DNA from: Thermodesulfobacteriota bacterium
GTDB taxonomy: Bacteria > Desulfobacterota > UBA8473
Direction: 5' to 3'
NCBI GenBank assembly: GCA_040757775.1
Contig: JBFLWQ010000017.1
Coordinates: forward strand, 1-64,000
Length of the DNA stretch: 64,000 bases
Shown: positions 24,630 to 37,460 of the stretch, piece after piece
Layout: each line of letters starts with the position of its first letter
How positions within the stretch are numbered: the stretch's first letter is position 1
Made by a program: the position numbers and the translations under genes
The notes under the pieces: generated by a model
Seen by the model: only the letters and a program-made list of their open reading frames with translations
What the model was told of the DNA's origin: nothing
Databases searched by the model: none

Positions 24630-25421
24630 TTATTGTATAGACAGGAGTTCGGTGAGCTTTTTGGCTATATCCCTCTCCCTCATAAGACTCTCGCCTATGA
24701 GAAAGGCATGTGCCCCGCACTCCCTTAACCTTGAAATATCTTCGGCTGTATTGATGCCGCTTTCACTCACCACAATCTTATCCTGCGAGATTTCTTTGAT
24801 GAGACGTTCTGTTGTTGCTATGTCGGTTTTGAAGGTTTTCAGATCCCGGTTGTTTATGCCGATAATTTCAGCCTCTGTTTGAAGAACCCTCTTCAATTCT
24901 TCAAGGTTGTGGACTTCCACAAGAGCCTGCATGCCCAGCTCTCTTCCGGTTTTTAAAAGATCCTTCAACTCACTATCGTTCAATATCGCTGCAATCAATA
25001 AGAAGGCATCGGCACCGTAAGTACGTGCCTGATAAACCTGATACTCATCAAAGATAAAATCCTTACCCAGAAGAGGAATAGCAGTCATCTCTCTTATTTT
25101 TTTGAGGTAATCGAGGCTTCCATAAAAGAAGTTCTCTTCGGTAAGTACGGATATGGCCGATGCCCCATTGGCCTCATATATCTTTGCAATCTCAACCGGA
25201 TCAAAATCTTCCCTGATTATCCCTTTGGATGGCGATGCCTTCTTTACCTCGGCAATAATCTTTATTGGGGTTGACGGCGATGTCAGAGCAAACTTGATGT
25301 CTCTTACAGGAGGTGGCTTGCTTATCCGGCTTTTGAGCTCATCGATCGAACACTTCTTTTTTGTCTCAAAAAGTTCTTTCTTTTTATGGTTGATAATCTC
25401 ATCTAAAAAAATACCTTTCAC
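24630..25421 (-). CDS. trpC: Indole-3-glycerol phosphate synthase
   Basis: It forms indole-3-glycerol phosphate from CdRP in Trp synthesis. The 263-residue TIM barrel has the N-terminal catalytic segment IIAEVKKASPSKG, EDFDP, LLGKDFI, LVEVHN, GINNRDLKTF and VSESGI. It is a separate enzyme, not fused to trpF. It is the last Trp gene of the operon. A diverged duplicate of its 3' end lies at 22247-22330. Confidence 0.97.
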   Translation of the reverse strand: MKGIFLDEIINHKKKELFETKKKCSIDELKSRISKPPPVRDIKFALTSPSTPIKIIAEVKKASPSKGIIREDFDPVEIAKIYEANGASAISVLTEENFFYGSLDYLKKIREMTAIPLLGKDFIFDEYQVYQARTYGADAFLLIAAILNDSELKDLLKTGRELGMQALVEVHNLEELKRVLQTEAEIIGINNRDLKTFKTDIATTERLIKEISQDKIVVSESGINTAEDISRLRECGAHAFLIGESLMRERDIAKKLTELLSIQ

Positions 25422-25448
25422 CTTTCACCTTTTACCTTTTCCCGTTCA

Positions 25449-26459
25449 CTATTTATTGCTAATTTTCACAAGCCCTTCCAGTTTCTTCATGGCAGAACCG
25501 CTGTCTATGGACTCTTCTGCAACCCTGACACCTTCGATAAAAGTTTCTGCCTTTCCACCGGCTACAATAGCGGCGGCGGCATTGAGGAGAATTATATCCC
25601 TTTTCGGTCCTTTTTCACCCCTGAGAACCCCCAGAGTAATACTGGCGTTTTCTTCAGGGCTTCCTCCAAGCAGGTCTTCAGCCCGGCATCGCTCAATACT
25701 GAAATCCTCTGGTTTTATCCAATAGGTATCCACCTTTCCGTTCTTTAGCTCAGAGACTTTTGTCTTAGAACTTAGACTGATCTCGTCCAGCCCATCCTCA
25801 CCATGGACTACAAAGGCATGTTGGCTCCCCAGATTACCCAAAACAGCAGCCAATTTTTCTGTCAGCTCTTTGGAATATATACCTATCACCTGGGCAGAAG
25901 CCCCTGCAGGGTTGGTCAATGGCCCCAATATATTGAAGACAGTTCTTATACCAATCTCCCGCCGGGGTCCGATTGCATATTTCATTGCTCCGTGAAGCAG
26001 AGGAGCAAAGAGGAAGCCGATACCATTTTCATTGAGGCATCTTTCTACTATGCTTGCACCTGCTTCGATGTTTACTCCCAAAGCCTTTAAGACATCTGCG
26101 CTTCCACAGTTGCTTGATACAGATCTGTTCCCGTGTTTTGCTACAGTTATACCAGCCCCTGCTGCTACAAATGCTGAAGTGGTAGATATGTTAAAGGTAT
26201 TGGCCCCATCTCCACCGGTTCCGCATGTATCTATAACCGTGGGAGAGTTTGTGTTTATCTTGATAGCCTTTTCACGCATAACCCTGGCTGCACCGGTAAT
26301 CTCCTCTATGGTTTCTCCCTTCATTCGCAGGGCAGTAATGAACGAGGCTATCTGGGCAGGGGTTGCCTCTCCGCTCATTATCTGGTTCATTACTCCTACC
26401 ATCTCTGATTCGGACAGGTTATTCCCCTCGATCACCTTTCCTATTGCCTCTGTAATCAT
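25449..26459 (-). CDS. trpD: Anthranilate phosphoribosyltransferase
   Basis: It transfers phosphoribose from PRPP to anthranilate. The 336 residues carry the [21 protein letters not shown]-binding loop, KHGNRSVSS and a conserved [13 protein letters not shown]. The order trpG-trpD is kept and the two are separate proteins. About 61 bp separate it from trpG. Confidence 0.97.
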
Positions 26460-26520
26460 GATAGCTGTCTCCTCTTGATATTCAATAGTAGCAATTGCAA
26501 TTCAGAAATTGGACTTTAGT

Positions 26521-27108
26521 CTATGGTCTACTGTCTAAATCACTGATACTCTTCAGAAAATTCTTCAAAAGGCCTTTTCCCACCCTGGTCAGGATAGACT
26601 CCGGGTGGAATTGAATCCCCTCTATGGGGTATTCTTTGTGCCTGACTCCCATTATTTCGCCATCTTCACTCTCTGCACTTACCTTGAGACAGGCAGGAAG
26701 AGTGGCTTTATCGATGACCAATGAGTGGTATCTTGTAGCCTCGAAGGGATTTGGCAGGTCTTTATAGACCCCTTCATTGTCATGATGTATAAGGGAGGTC
26801 TTACCATGCATTATGTTTTTAGCTTTAATGACCCTTCCGCCGAATGCCTCTCCAATCGACTGATGCCCTAAGCATACACCAAGGATTGGTATCTTGCCGG
26901 CGAAGTGTCTGATTGCAGCCAATGAGATGCCAGCTTCTTTGGGTCTGCCAGGCCCAGGTGAAATAGTCAGTCCCCGGGGTTTCAGACTGTCAATATCTTC
27001 CATACTTATCTTATCGTTTCTAAACACCCTGACTTCCTCACCCAGTTCTTCAAGGTACTGGACCAGGTTATAAGTAAAAGAATCATAATTATCAATCATC
27101 AAAAGCAT
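26521..27108 (-). CDS. trpG: Anthranilate synthase, glutamine amidotransferase subunit
   Basis: This 195-residue class I glutamine amidotransferase supplies ammonia to TrpE. The nucleophile is in [16 protein letters not shown], and the His-Glu pair is in [10 protein letters not shown]. The [19 protein letters not shown] start is canonical. It could also serve a PabB, as in some bacteria. It starts 4 bp after the trpE stop. Confidence 0.96.
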
Positions 27109-27111
27109 CTT

Positions 27112-28593
27112 TTAACCCAATCCATCTTTAGCCATCTCAAGGGCTTTCATCATAGCCTTAGCCTTATTTACTGTTTCCGACCACTCTTTATCTGGTTCTG
27201 AATCAGCAACGATACCGGCGCCTACCTGAATATATATAGTGCGATCCTTTATTATCACTGTCCTAATTGTAATACAAAAATCCATATTGGCGGAAAAGCT
27301 AAAGTACCCTACGGCACCGGCATAAGGGCCTCTCCTGGCAGGTTCCAAATCTTCGATTATCTCCATCGCCCTCACTTTAGGAGCACCGGAAACCGTTCCT
27401 GCGGGGAAACATGCCTTAAGAACATCAAAACAATCCTTATCGTCAGCAAGAACTCCCTGGACATTTGAGACTATATGCATTACATGGGAGTATCTTTCTA
27501 TTACCATAAGTTCGTTGACGTTGACTGTTGCTGTTTTTGCTACTCTACCCACATCATTTCGCCCAAGGTCTACCAGCATTATATGTTCTGCAATCTCCTT
27601 AGGGTCCTGAAGCAAATCCTTCTCCAGTGCCTGGTCATCTTCAGGGGTTTTACCCCTTGGGCGCGTGCCAGCAATAGGTCTAAGGGCAATGCGATTGTTT
27701 TCAACCCTAACCATAACCTCCGGGGATGATCCTACTACCATCAAGTCATCGAACTTTAAGTAGAACATATAGGGTGAGGGATTTATAATCCTTAAACTCC
27801 GATAGATGTTCATGGGGTCTATATCAGCCTGTGTCTGGAATCGCTGTGAAAGGACTACCTGTATAATATCCCCTGCCACGATATGCTCTTTTGCTTTTGC
27901 TACTATATTTTCAAACTCCTCTTTTGAAAGATTCGATGTGATATTGAGGCTTGGTTGACGGGTAATCGGTATTGATTCTCTGCTCAGAGGTTCTTTTAAC
28001 TTTGAGACTATGGAATCTATCTTTCTTGCAGCCTCTCTGTATACGCTCTCCAGGTCACACCCATCGTTTAAGTAAACATTGGACACAACTTTCATGGTTT
28101 GTTTCAGGCTGTCAAATATCAGGATGGTGTCTGTAATCACAAAGAAGCTGTCGTATATGTTAAGGTCATCGGTGGTATTGTCGGGTAATTCTTCAAAGAA
28201 TCTCACCATGTCATAACTCAAATAGCCCACCGCTCCGCCAAAAAACCTGGGGAGTCCGTCCATCGTTACAGGTTTATATTCCCTCATTAAATCCCTTAAT
28301 TTATCGAGGGGGGATTTCACATTTTTCCACTCTTCTGTATTTTTGCCACTGATAATTTCTACCGTGTTCCCTTTGCTTCTAAAGATTATAGAGGGGTTGA
28401 AGCCAAGGAAACTGTATCTGGCCCATTTTTCACCCCCCTCCACGCTTTCCAGCAGGAATGAATATTTGCCGCCGTTTATCTTTTGAAATGCAGAGACCGG
28501 GGTCTCCATATCTGCCAGGATATCTCTGTATACAGGTATAAGGTTACCTTCTTTTGCTTTTCTGGAAAACTCTTCAAAAGAGGGGAAGTACAT
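27112..28593 (-). CDS. trpE: Anthranilate synthase component I
   Basis: It converts chorismate to anthranilate. The 493-residue protein has the Trp-binding feedback site LLESVEGGEKWARYSF near residue 46 (LLES motif) and NPSPYMFYL near 275. The catalytic C-domain contains GTRPRGKTPEDD and GAPKVRAMEIIEDLEP. The presence of LLES suggests feedback inhibition by Trp. It follows trpB2 with a 94-bp gap that holds two small hairpins. Confidence 0.97.
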   Translation of the reverse strand: MYFPSFEEFSRKAKEGNLIPVYRDILADMETPVSAFQKINGGKYSFLLESVEGGEKWARYSFLGFNPSIIFRSKGNTVEIISGKNTEEWKNVKSPLDKLRDLMREYKPVTMDGLPRFFGGAVGYLSYDMVRFFEELPDNTTDDLNIYDSFFVITDTILIFDSLKQTMKVVSNVYLNDGCDLESVYREAARKIDSIVSKLKEPLSRESIPITRQPSLNITSNLSKEEFENIVAKAKEHIVAGDIIQVVLSQRFQTQADIDPMNIYRSLRIINPSPYMFYLKFDDLMVVGSSPEVMVRVENNRIALRPIAGTRPRGKTPEDDQALEKDLLQDPKEIAEHIMLVDLGRNDVGRVAKTATVNVNELMVIERYSHVMHIVSNVQGVLADDKDCFDVLKACFPAGTVSGAPKVRAMEIIEDLEPARRGPYAGAVGYFSFSANMDFCITIRTVIIKDRTIYIQVGAGIVADSEPDKEWSETVNKAKAMMKALEMAKDGLG

Positions 28594-28595
28594 TT

Positions 28596-28687
28596 GTAAT
28601 TTCGTTCCTTTCAGACAGGGGAACAGCCCTTACGGGCTGCCCCCATTCTTGTCAGTTTACACACAGCGGGCTTAAGCCCGTTGTTGT
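28596..28687. repeat. Two small palindromes between trpB2 and trpE
   Basis: The gap contains AGCCCttACGGGCT and CGGGCttaaGCCCG, separated by about 30 bp. Neither is followed by a T-run on the minus strand, so they are unlikely to be terminators. They may be processing sites or REP-like repeats in the trp transcript. Confidence 0.4.
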
Positions 28688-30043
28688 TTAAATATTCGGC
28701 AGATTCTTCAATGCCTCTTTTATCATCTCCTCAGGATACTCAAAATCTTCGAGTTTACCTGCAATGTAGGCATCGTAAGCTGCCAGGTCAAAGTGTCCAT
28801 GGCCACTGAAGGCAATAACAATACACTTTTCCTCTCCTGTCTCTTTACATCTCAAAGCTTCGTCAACAGCGCCCTTTATTGCATGGGCTGTTTCAGGAGC
28901 AGGAATAATTCCTTCGGTTTGGGCAAATCGCATCGCTGCTTCAAAGACGGGATTTTGATGATATGCCCTTGCTTCAATAACCCCTTGATTTACCAAAAGA
29001 CAGAGAAGAGGAGCATCACCGTGATACCTCAATCCTCCGGCATGGATGCCTGGCGGAACAAAGGTATGTCCTAAGGTGTACATCATTAATAGTGGTGTCA
29101 TCTGGGCAGTGTCACCAAAATCATAGCGGTAAGGTCCCTTGGTCAATGTAGGACATGAGGTAGGTTCTACCGCAATTATCCTCATATCTTTACCGTCCAG
29201 CTTATCTTTGACAAATGGGAAACAGAACCCTGCAAAGTTGCTCCCTCCGCCAACACAACCGATCAGAATATCCGGGGATTCCCCTGCTAATTTCAGCTGT
29301 TCTTTTACCTCTAAACCAATAATGGTTTGATGTAATAAAACATGATTTAACACGCTCCCCAGAGAATATTTGGTATCATCGTGGGTAGCTGCATCCTCTA
29401 TTGCTTCTGAAATGGCTATCCCAAGACTTCCTAACGTATTTGGGTCTTTTTCTAGAATGGTCCTCCCGGCATTGGTCAGTTTAGTCGGAGATGGATGTAC
29501 TGTTGCCCCCCATGCGTGCATCAAAGACCTTCGGTAAGGTTTTTGCTCATAGCTCACCTTTACCATATAGACGGTGCATTCTATATCAAAGAGCTTACAG
29601 GCAAAAGCCAGAGCGCTTCCCCACTGTCCTGCCCCTGTCTCCGTAGCAATCCTTCTCACTCCTTCTTTCTTGTTGTAATATGCCTGGGCAACAGCAGTAT
29701 TTGGCTTATGGCTTCCCGGAGGGCTAACACTCTCGTTCTTATAGTATATTCTGGCAGGGGTTCCTAATGCCTTTTCCAGTCTCTTTGCTCTATGCAAAGG
29801 AGTTGGCCTCCACAATTTGTAAATATCCAGGATTTCATCCGGTATCTCTATCCAGCGTTCCTGGCTTACCTCTTGTTCAATAAGCCCCATAGGAAATATT
29901 GGAGCCAGGTCCTGAGGACCTACTGGTTGACCTGTTCCTGGATTTAATGGCGGCATAAGCGGTTTGGGCAGATCCGCCTGGACGTTATACCACTTCTGAG
30001 GCAACTCTTTTTCACTCAACAATATCTTAGTTTCTTTCATCAT
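28688..30043 (-). CDS. Tryptophan synthase beta-type protein, TrpB2 group
   Basis: This 451-residue PLP enzyme makes Trp from indole and serine. The PLP lysine is K113 in [13 protein letters not shown], and the phosphate-binding loop is [13 protein letters not shown]. The length and the start [13 protein letters not shown] mark the longer TrpB2 type, which does not rely on TrpA. It is first in the operon, behind the attenuator. No trpA, trpF or TrpB1 gene is in the window. Two adjacent ATG codons are possible starts. Confidence 0.93.
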
Positions 30044-34918: not shown

Positions 34919-36082
34919 ATGAGAGGCAATGATATCTTTTATTCAGGAGAAGAGATTAAGTTCAGGGCTGAGGTGAAGGAATATGCGGCTGCTGAGATTC
35001 TACCTCTGTCAAACGATTTTGATGAAGGCACTATAAAAATCAGGGAGATTGTTAAAAAGCTGGGAGAAAAAGGTTACATGGGTGTATCCATGCCAAAAGA
35101 GTATGGCGGTCAGGGTAAGAGTGTAGTATTTGAGATGATCCTGTGTGAAGAGCTGGGCGCCATAAATTATGGGGTAGCCGCTGTCCACATTGCATCATCC
35201 CTCTTTCTCGGGTATCCTCTCGTTCGTTTTGGCACTGAGGAGCAAAAAAAGAAATACTTAGTCCCGATTACAACAGGACAAAGGGTTTCAGGCATGGGTA
35301 TGACAGAACCTACGGCCGGGTCTGATGTGGCAGGGACAAAGACTGAAGCTGTTTTAGAGGGAGACTTTTATATACTAAAGGGGGAAAAACGCTTTATTGG
35401 CTGTGGCAGCGAAGCGGATTTCCTTCTTACCTTCGCAATTACAGACCCATCTGTGCATGCGCATAAAGGAATGACTGCGTTTATTGCGGAGACTTCAGAT
35501 CCGGGTTTTGAACTGGTGAAAGTCTTTGATCTTTTGGGCTGGGTGGGCGTTGGTGTTTCCCATCTAAGATACAACAATCTCAAAGTTCCCAGAGATAACA
35601 TTCTGGGCAAACTCAATCATGGCTTTATAGTTGCCGGTTATGAGCTTGATGCAGAGAGGGTAGCAGCTGCCGCAGCGGGTATCGGAATGGCAAGGGCTGC
35701 TTTTGAGATAGCAGTCAAATATTCCTCTGAGAGAAAGCAGTTTGATGTTCCTATTAGGACATTTGAGGGAGTTAATTTCAAGGTTGCTGACATGGCTATA
35801 GGTTTGGAGGCTATGTCGCTCCTGAACCTTAAGGTAGCGAGGATGATAGAAGAAGGGGTTACGGCCTCTAAAGAATCAGCTATTTCTAAGTTGTTTGCAG
35901 CGGAAGGAACTTTTAGTGTTGTAAACGATGCATTGCAGATTATGGGGGGTATCGGTTTGACAAAAGAGTATCCCATAGAAAAGTTTTTCAGAGATGCCAG
36001 GGCTTTGTCAATAGCGGGGGGGACAAACGAGATTTTGAAATATCTCATACAGAGGGAAGTTTATAAGGAGTTCGGACTTTAA
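34919..36082 (+). CDS. Acyl-CoA dehydrogenase
   Basis: The start is ATG 34919 after GAGGGAGG, giving 387 residues. It oxidises an acyl-CoA at C2-C3, passing electrons to ETF. Family blocks are GMGMTEPTAGSD, YSSERKQFDVPI and the C-terminal GGTNEILKYLIQREV. At the MCAD base position (YEGT) it has AGGT, and it has a Glu in LDAERV, the position used by LCAD and IVD enzymes, so it should be active. It ends the acyl-CoA cluster. Substrate unknown. Confidence 0.92.
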   Translation: MRGNDIFYSGEEIKFRAEVKEYAAAEILPLSNDFDEGTIKIREIVKKLGEKGYMGVSMPKEYGGQGKSVVFEMILCEELGAINYGVAAVHIASSLFLGYPLVRFGTEEQKKKYLVPITTGQRVSGMGMTEPTAGSDVAGTKTEAVLEGDFYILKGEKRFIGCGSEADFLLTFAITDPSVHAHKGMTAFIAETSDPGFELVKVFDLLGWVGVGVSHLRYNNLKVPRDNILGKLNHGFIVAGYELDAERVAAAAAGIGMARAAFEIAVKYSSERKQFDVPIRTFEGVNFKVADMAIGLEAMSLLNLKVARMIEEGVTASKESAISKLFAAEGTFSVVNDALQIMGGIGLTKEYPIEKFFRDARALSIAGGTNEILKYLIQREVYKEFGL

Positions 36083-36145: not shown

Positions 36146-36172
36146 TTGACAAATCAATCAGCAGTATATAAA
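36146..36172 (+). promoter_or_regulatory. Promoter of the DAHP synthase leader
   Basis: TTGACA at 36146-36151 and TATAAA at 36167-36172 are separated by 15 bp. The leader peptide starts 21 bp downstream with AGGAG between. The block TGTCAAcaGCATTTTCTGATTT at 36113-36134 precedes it. Confidence 0.7.
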
Positions 36173-36193
36173 AAAGCAAGAAAGGAGTTGGTT

Positions 36194-36280
36194 ATGTTGT
36201 TTTATTTTACAAATTTTATATTCGAGACATTTTGCTGGCGATTTTATTTTATCTTTATAAAGTCTGCCCGGCATCCTTGA
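36194..36280 (+). CDS. Phe-rich leader peptide upstream of DAHP synthase
   Basis: A 28-codon frame starts at ATG 36194 after AAAGGAG and ends TGA 36278-36280. It begins MLFYFTNFIFETFCW and continues RFYFIFIKSARHP, with eight Phe, two Tyr and one Trp. It resembles pheA-type leader peptides. Codons 23-26 contain AGTCTGCCC (36261-36269), which is perfectly complementary over 9 bp to GGGCAGACT (36322-36330) in the first terminator. Stalling at Phe codons should expose it and prevent termination. Confidence 0.88.
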   Translation: MLFYFTNFIFETFCWRFYFIFIKSARHP

Positions 36281-36317
36281 ACTACATTTGTAAGATAAAA
36301 CAGAACATATTTCAAGG

Positions 36318-36358
36318 CCATGGGCAGACTGAAAGCAAAGCCCATGGTTTTTATTTTA
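36318..36358 (+). terminator. Attenuator terminator 1 of DAHP synthase
   Basis: CCATGGGC (36318-36325) pairs with GCCCATGG (36340-36347), followed by TTTTTATTTTA. Its 5' arm and loop contain GGGCAGACT, the partner of the leader strand at 36261-36269, so terminator and antiterminator are mutually exclusive. Confidence 0.88.
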
Positions 36359-36380
36359 TAAACTGTATTTAGTCTATATT

Positions 36381-36411
36381 AAGCCATGGGTAAAAACTCA
36401 TGGCTTTTTTA
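36381..36411 (+). terminator. Tandem terminator 2 of DAHP synthase leader
   Basis: AAGCCATG (36381-36388) pairs with CATGGCTT (36399-36406) over a 10-nt loop, followed by a T-run. It nearly matches the second hairpin in the trp leader. Confidence 0.78.
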
Positions 36412-36443
36412 TTTATTTTAAAGGCTATTTAGGAGGTAGGGGG

Positions 36444-37460
36444 ATGATAATTGTAATGAAAGCAAAGGCAACAAAAGATGACCTGGAGGAGGTTGTGAGA
36501 AAGATAGAAAAATTGGGATATAAACCCCATGTTATCCAAGGGGTAGAAAGGAATGTTATTGGGGCCGTCGGTGATGAAAGGGGAAAGGCAAAACTTCAAT
36601 CCCTGGAAGTCCTTTCTGGGGTTGATAAGGTCGTTCCTATCCTTAAGCCTTATAAACTCGCTAGTCGTGACATAAAACCAGAAGGGACTATTGTCAGTAT
36701 CGATGACAAAGTAGAAATTGGCGGTAATAAGATAGTAGTTATCGCAGGGCCTTGTTCTGTTGAGAGTGAAGACCAGATTATAAAATCAGCTTATATTGTA
36801 AAAGAAGCTGGTGCAGATATTCTGCGTGGCGGTGCCTTCAAACCCCGGACTTCTCCGTACAGTTTTCAAGGCTTAGAAAAAAAGGGGCTGATTTTACTAG
36901 CTAAAGCCAAAGAAAAGGTTGGGCTCCCTGTTGTAACGGAGATAATGAACCCTAAAGACGTGGACCTGGTTGCAGAATATTCAGATATTATGCAGGTCGG
37001 GGCACGGAATGTCCAAAACTTTGCCCTTCTGAAAAAACTTGGAAGGTACAATAAACCCATATTATTAAAACGAGGCATGTCTACTACTATAGAGGAATTC
37101 TTGATGTCAGCAGAATACATACTCTCAGAAGGAAACAAAGACGTGATTTTGTGTGAGAGAGGCATAAGGACATTTGAAACCGCTACAAGAAATACCCTGG
37201 ACTTGAGTTGTATTCCGGTTTTAAAAGAAAGGACCCATCTGCCTATAATTGTAGACCCAAGTCATGCTACAGGGTTTTGGTCATATGTAGCTCCGATGTC
37301 GTATGCAGCAATTGCAGCAGGAGCCGATGGCCTGATGATAGAGGTACATCCCAATCCAGAAGATGCTGAAAGCGACGGTATTCAGTCCCTGAAACCCCAT
37401 AAATTTACTGCTCTGATGGAAAATCTAAAAGCCTATATAGCAGCCGCAGGAAGGATATGA
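36444..37460 (+). CDS. 3-deoxy-7-phosphoheptulonate synthase with N-terminal ferredoxin-like domain
   Basis: This 338-residue enzyme makes DAHP from PEP and erythrose-4-phosphate, the entry to the shikimate pathway. Residues 1-75 are the ferredoxin-like regulatory domain of the Thermotoga-type (AroF/DAHPS Ib) enzyme, implicated in feedback control. The TIM barrel has [29 protein letters not shown] and DPSHATG. It starts after TAGGAGG at 36444 and follows a Phe-rich attenuator. The next shikimate enzymes, AroB and AroQ, are encoded at 5-7 kb. Confidence 0.95.

Follow-up and report, generated by a model that had tools for sequence, protein, structure and literature searches.

The DAHP synthase gene at 36444-37460 of the window, by which we mean the whole 64,000-nucleotide stretch of DNA that was analysed, appears to be preceded by a ribosome-mediated attenuator in which alternative RNA pairings form a relay that lets a single leader peptide govern two successive intrinsic terminators. 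On the basis of sequence comparisons and folding models, we assign this reading a probability of about 0.7. Its two parts differ in strength. Comparison with relatives lends strong support to attenuation of this DAHP synthase by a leader peptide, which we regard as very likely; that the relay switches both terminators is probable.

From the elements of the leader, their conservation, the preference of pairing segments for partners in their own locus and the order of folding in silico, we infer the following course of events, in which promoter use, ribosome stalling, termination at either terminator and the amino acids sensed are all predicted. When charged aromatic tRNAs are ample, the ribosome would reach the stop codon of the leader and cover segment 2. 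Segments 3 and 4 would then pair to form the first terminator (T1, 3:4), and polymerases that read through it would meet the second (T2, 5:6). If any aromatic tRNA were scarce, the ribosome would stall in the run of Phe, Tyr and Trp codons, and segments 2 and 3 would pair before the 3' arm of T1 is transcribed. Segment 4 would thereby stay free and could capture segment 5 as it emerges, so that T2 would be disarmed as well. With no ribosome on the transcript, a stem designated P1 would sequester segment 2, and T1 and T2 would both form.

The leader frame and its pairing segments

The spacer at 36146-36443 is flanked by an acyl-CoA dehydrogenase gene, which ends at 36082, and by the DAHP synthase gene, whose product combines an N-terminal ferredoxin-like domain with a DAHP synthase I domain (PF18152 and PF00793). 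All features of this locus are on the + strand. A putative promoter is suggested by a -35-like TTGACA at 36146-36151, kept in the genus alignment, with AGTATATAA downstream. An AGGAG resembling a Shine-Dalgarno sequence (36183-36187) precedes the leader frame at 36194-36280 (ATG at 36194, stop at 36280), and the DAHP synthase gene has a Shine-Dalgarno sequence of its own, AGGAGG, at 36431-36436. The predicted peptide, MLFYFTNFIFETFCWRFYFIFIKSARHP, has 28 residues, is kept in frame in relatives and, as in known leader peptides, contains a run of codons for products of the regulated pathway. An earlier note on this DNA had described a 28-residue frame with eight Phe; both details are borne out, and two Tyr and one Trp are present in addition. 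Phe richness by itself is modestly unlikely and makes a weak item of evidence, as at least eight Phe within 28 amino acids arose in 141 of 5000 shuffles (2.8%) of this AT-rich spacer; it is the relatives that decide.

Several segments of the leader can pair in alternative ways. Stem P1 would join a 5' arm at the start of the leader (36198-36214) to a 3' arm after its stop codon (36286-36302), the two being 94% complementary in a 17-bp stem. Segment 2 consists of the antiterminator strand 2a, AGTCTGCCC, inside the frame at 36261-36269, and of 2b, CCTTGAA, at 36275-36281. Segment 3 (36311-36330) is the partner of segment 2, holds the 5' arm of T1 and is made up of TTCAAGG (36311-36317), CCAT and GGGCAGACT (36322-36330). 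Block 2b pairs with TTCAAGG, and 2a is the exact complement of GGGCAGACT, a stretch that coincides in part with the 5' arm and the loop side of T1; the earlier note had rightly described this nine-nucleotide strand as complementary to the loop side of the terminator. The 7-nt block 2b, the 17-bp stem P1 and the pairing of the T1 3' arm with the T2 5' arm (36341-36350 with 36381-36390) go beyond that description.

T1 was found by a terminator scan at 36314-36353, where CCATGGGC...GCCCATGG is followed by a U-tract. Its 3' arm, segment 4 (36340-36350), has an alternative partner in segment 5 (36381-36391), which is the 5' arm of T2 (36381-36412 with its U-tract; also delimited as 36381-36406), a local hairpin of -15.2 kcal with a U-rich tail. 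Two predicted intrinsic terminators are therefore placed between the leader frame and the gene, the position in which an attenuator has its terminator. The nine-nucleotide complement arose in 18 of 5000 shuffles of the leader. The whole 2:3 duplex reached -28.1 kcal, compared with a shuffle mean of -12.3 and a shuffle minimum of -25.0 (0 of 1000 as good), and the 241-nt leader folded with a z-score of -6.9.

Conservation of the leader in related bacteria

We compared 94 regions upstream of related DAHP synthases, drawn from the genus, from another genus of its family and, more widely, from many families across the phylum. Those relatives that are in the named collection are MAGs and carry the labels Deltaproteobacteria and Desulfobacterales; searches at the order and class levels yielded no additional genomes, and an alignment of the genus only was too narrow for covariation. 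An aromatic leader together with a terminator was present in 62 of the 94 regions and, counted by family, in 22 of 30. The regions had been picked for similarity to the DAHP synthase studied here and do not form a random sample. ORFs with at least seven aromatic residues per 12 amino acids occurred in 55 of the 94 regions, as against 0 of 94 reverse complements and 0.5% of shuffles.

In the alignment of the genus with L004, a locus from another genus of the family, the leader frame was kept and the sole indel inside it measured 6 nt; indels 3' of the leader stop measured 1, 2 and 8 nt. What was kept across families was the density of aromatic residues, the frame and the placement of segment 2 within the ORF; the sequence itself was not. 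The earlier note had named as evidence against its proposal a frame that was absent or poor in Phe in relatives retaining the terminators. This pattern was looked for and was not what we found in the genus, in L004 or in the 22 of 30 families.

Some relatives depart from the arrangement in the window. L004 carries approximately 150 nt of extra sequence between T2 and the start of the DAHP synthase gene. In a clade of family f33 (L171, L172, L174, L025, L164 and others), the leaders end in ...YYFWF..PPVG and one terminator follows, AGGCCGTGGGTGGTT...CCCACGGCCT; this clade provides a natural comparison for the contribution of T2. Aromatic-rich short ORFs, for example NSYYFYFFNWGFYFFSAGYFAL, were also observed before DAHP synthases in unrelated phyla (L053, L056, L057 (Vallitalea); L042, L043, L046, L048 (Bryobacterales); L049 (Acidimicrobiia); L084 and L097), and these are possibly convergent attenuators.

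The same genome encodes a paralogous DAHP synthase (L008, L192; contig C2) that is 62% identical and lies directly 3' of a prephenate dehydratase gene. A scan upstream of the paralogue revealed no aromatic leader and, as this second isoenzyme is without one, the two are probably regulated differently. Examination of the hisG and HMGL-like genes of the genome revealed no clear leader.

Within-locus preference of the antiterminator and proposed relay pairings

Segments 2 and 3 matched better within a locus than between loci. The mean 2:3 duplex was -23.5 kcal within loci and -19.0 kcal when partners were exchanged from locus to locus (p ≤ 0.0002, with no average as good in 5000 permutations), and the preference persisted with one locus per family (p = 0.001). 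The reversed-sequence control showed no significant own-locus preference for 2:3. At locus L023 the 2:3 stem was kept with a G-C to C-G swap.

Tandem terminators follow the leader at 33 loci representing 15 families, and at these the 3' side of T1 pairs with the 5' side of T2. The 4:5 duplex was -18.9 kcal within loci versus -15.3 kcal when swapped (p ≤ 0.0002; p = 0.001 at the level of the 15 families). At most loci the stability of the 4:5 hairpin roughly equalled or exceeded that of T2, the values in the window being -19.8 and -15.2 kcal. The palindrome CCATGG is often present in both terminators, and we therefore also counted the T2-loop bases, which the T2 stem does not need, that were paired with the 3' side of T1; there were 81, compared with 50.5 ± 6.8 in loop shuffles. 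Two loci (L136 and L145) have another T2 core and retain a TCTCCC:GGGAGA match. The reversed control for 4:5 gave a weak own-locus preference (p = 0.019; approximately 0.07 at the family level), and composition accounts for a small part of the preference. The 4:5 complementarity could also be due in part to duplication, given the CCATGG core that the two terminators often have in common. Several families that bear the leader have one terminator only, and T2 is therefore not essential to the design.

Simulated folding with a stalled ribosome

Stalls were simulated with a ribosome footprint that began 15 nt before the P site and reached 12 nt past the first nucleotide of the codon in the A site. 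Staged folding was judged the appropriate test because it detects the proven switches of hisL, trpL and pheL, whereas hisL and trpL fail the equilibrium test. With the RNA of the window extended to 36335, 2:3 formed with p = 1.0 for every aromatic A-site codon from F3 to F19. It formed with p = 0 when the ribosome was at F21, at the stop codon or absent, in which last case stem P1 can form instead. Once the T2 5' arm had emerged, 2:3 and 4:5 both formed with p = 1.0 in the F3-F19 stalls. In the complete leader of the window, T1 and T2 both formed when the ribosome sat at the stop codon and also when none was present. The models thus predict what attenuation asks of an antiterminator strand, namely that it be masked at the stop codon and free on a stall in the run.

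Among the relatives, 53 of 60 leaders gained at least 6 bp of 2:3 upon stalling in staged folding, and both 2:3 and 4:5 formed at 25 of the 33 tandem loci. The earlier note had envisaged a switch acting on one terminator. There are two in series, and the data indicate that they are switched jointly.

Full-length equilibrium folding was dropped as the main test on account of its failure with hisL and trpL. By this calculation the joint switch appeared at just 5 of the 33 tandem loci, and the window showed it for stalls between F8 and roughly W15 but for no others. Although the test is a poor one, its outcome lends no support.

A second instance upstream of the trp genes

A second leader of this kind lies on the - strand of the window. 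The trp leader MSNKEFSCSYDSNWWWWNNYILGICPPPSP, which includes WWWW, is at 30392-30300 and stands upstream of trp genes at 24630-30043, assigned by sequence as a TrpB2-type gene, trpE, trpG, trpD and trpC. Its leader region contains its own T1 (30274-30239) and T2 (30225-30194), and its alternative pairings were -23.7 kcal for 2:3 and -18.1 kcal for 4:5. In staged folding, a stall at each Trp codon formed both. Leaders with clustered Trp codons were present in 5 of 5 genus genomes searched, and the regions upstream of the next-closest homologues showed no clear leader of this type. The same design thus appears to serve two related pathways of this genome.

We lean towards the more general view that one stall switches two serial terminators by relay, and that one genome employs the design both for the shared aromatic pathway, where it would read Phe, Tyr and Trp, and for the trp operon, where it would read Trp, with the DAHP synthase version found in at least 15 families of the phylum. 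Serial terminators multiply leakiness. A relay that lifts both would, if true, permit a tighter off-state with the same on-state, and so widen the range of the attenuator. In a large bacterial group that has received little study, the first enzyme of the shikimate pathway would also be predicted to follow whichever aromatic tRNA is in short supply.

Amino acids probably sensed and alternative explanations

The earlier note had proposed a DAHP synthase leader that responds to Phe and perhaps Tyr. Attenuation is upheld by the 22 of 30 families, but the focus on Phe is probably too narrow, as Phe, Tyr and Trp occur together in 50 of the 60 leaders analysed (Phe in 59, Tyr in 58 and Trp in 53). 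For this reason it is likely that the leader reads all three aromatic amino acids and not Phe alone, and a sensor of all three end products would suit an enzyme that opens the common pathway, as DAHP synthase does. A leader that measures only charged Phe-tRNA, as in pheL, with incidental Tyr and Trp codons, would agree with the 8 Phe among the 11 aromatic residues of the window's leader and with the behaviour of AroR of Corynebacterium glutamicum, which reacts to limitation of Phe and not of Tyr (PMC11802643). We consider it rather unlikely, as the aromatic mix shifts toward Tyr across families, with nearly always one Trp. Leaders without Trp numbered 7, compared with about 20 expected (Poisson with the same mean; that is, 53 of 60 with Trp against about 40), a regularity that is inflated by sequence kinship and is to be taken as suggestive. 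Further, every Phe, Tyr and Trp stall up to F19 freed segment 2 in staged folding of the window.

The switching of T2 can also be questioned. The leader might control T1 only, as in a classical attenuator, and T2 might be an independent back-up that reduces basal read-through or ends transcripts arriving from outside. The leader-bearing families with a single terminator are compatible with this, as is the quality of T2 as a local hairpin with its U-rich tail. However, a strong T2 that was not switched would, lying between promoter and gene, shut off expression even with T1 disarmed, and the match between the 3' side of T1 and the 5' side of T2 within loci exceeds the levels in swapped loci and in loop shuffles; we therefore think independent action of T2 unlikely. 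In a third reading, the ORF would be a by-product of U-rich sequence and control would lie with a riboswitch, a T-box or a protein that binds the RNA. The AT-rich spacer and the 2.8% of its shuffles that give a Phe-rich ORF leave some room for this idea, but an Rfam scan matched no family to the leader region, a tRNA being its only match in the window. As aromatic density, frame and the place of segment 2 in the ORF are kept across families and the sequence is not, we hold control by a ligand, a tRNA or a protein to be highly improbable.

Comparison with known systems

The control of a DAHP synthase by a leader peptide has been published before, for AroR-aroF of C. glutamicum (Neshat 2014 in PMC11802643; PMC4046766), and is not novel as such. 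In that system, as in the relay attenuator proposed here, an aromatic leader (Phe-Tyr-Phe) precedes the DAHP synthase gene, and ribosome-mediated attenuation is reported. It differs in belonging to another phylum, in its three-codon run and in its response to Phe only (PMC11802643), and PMC11802643 and PMC4046766 do not describe tandem terminators or a relay. Homology is rarely visible between leaders of such small size. Literature searches on leader peptides combined with tandem terminators, with limited coverage of subscription journals, brought up no relevant work. Within that coverage we found no description of a leader-peptide relay running through two intrinsic terminators, and its novelty is provisional.

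Other systems share single features with the arrangement described here. uORFC-13-1, before aroF in Acholeplasma, is likewise a uORF with Phe codon(s) beside a terminator upstream of a DAHP synthase gene; it belongs to another phylum, has another structure with one terminator described, and is a prediction only (PMC8632094). The leader of mgtCBR in Salmonella likewise places one control point after another, here as two ORFs that act independently and involve no intrinsic terminators (PMC3641672). Tandem terminators serve as serial control points in the rimP leader, in which the second is without a link to a leader peptide (PMC2965389).

The attenuators of pheL-pheA and trpL-trp in Escherichia coli resemble the present leader in a peptide rich in the regulated amino acid, in a segment 2 within or after the ORF and in a terminator as the off-state, and differ from it in having one terminator each and in the genes regulated. 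A parallel to the relay is offered by enterobacterial hisL (pairings AB/CD/EF, alternative BC/DE), in which a chain of pairings is handed from the leader to a distal terminator (PMC10989985). The predicted 2:3 and 4:5 pairings would pass an alternative structure along in the manner of B:C and D:E. In hisL, however, a U-tract is found only after EF (PMC10989985), whereas T1, the equivalent of CD, has a U-tract of its own, and the terminator scan accordingly reported one terminator in hisL and two here.
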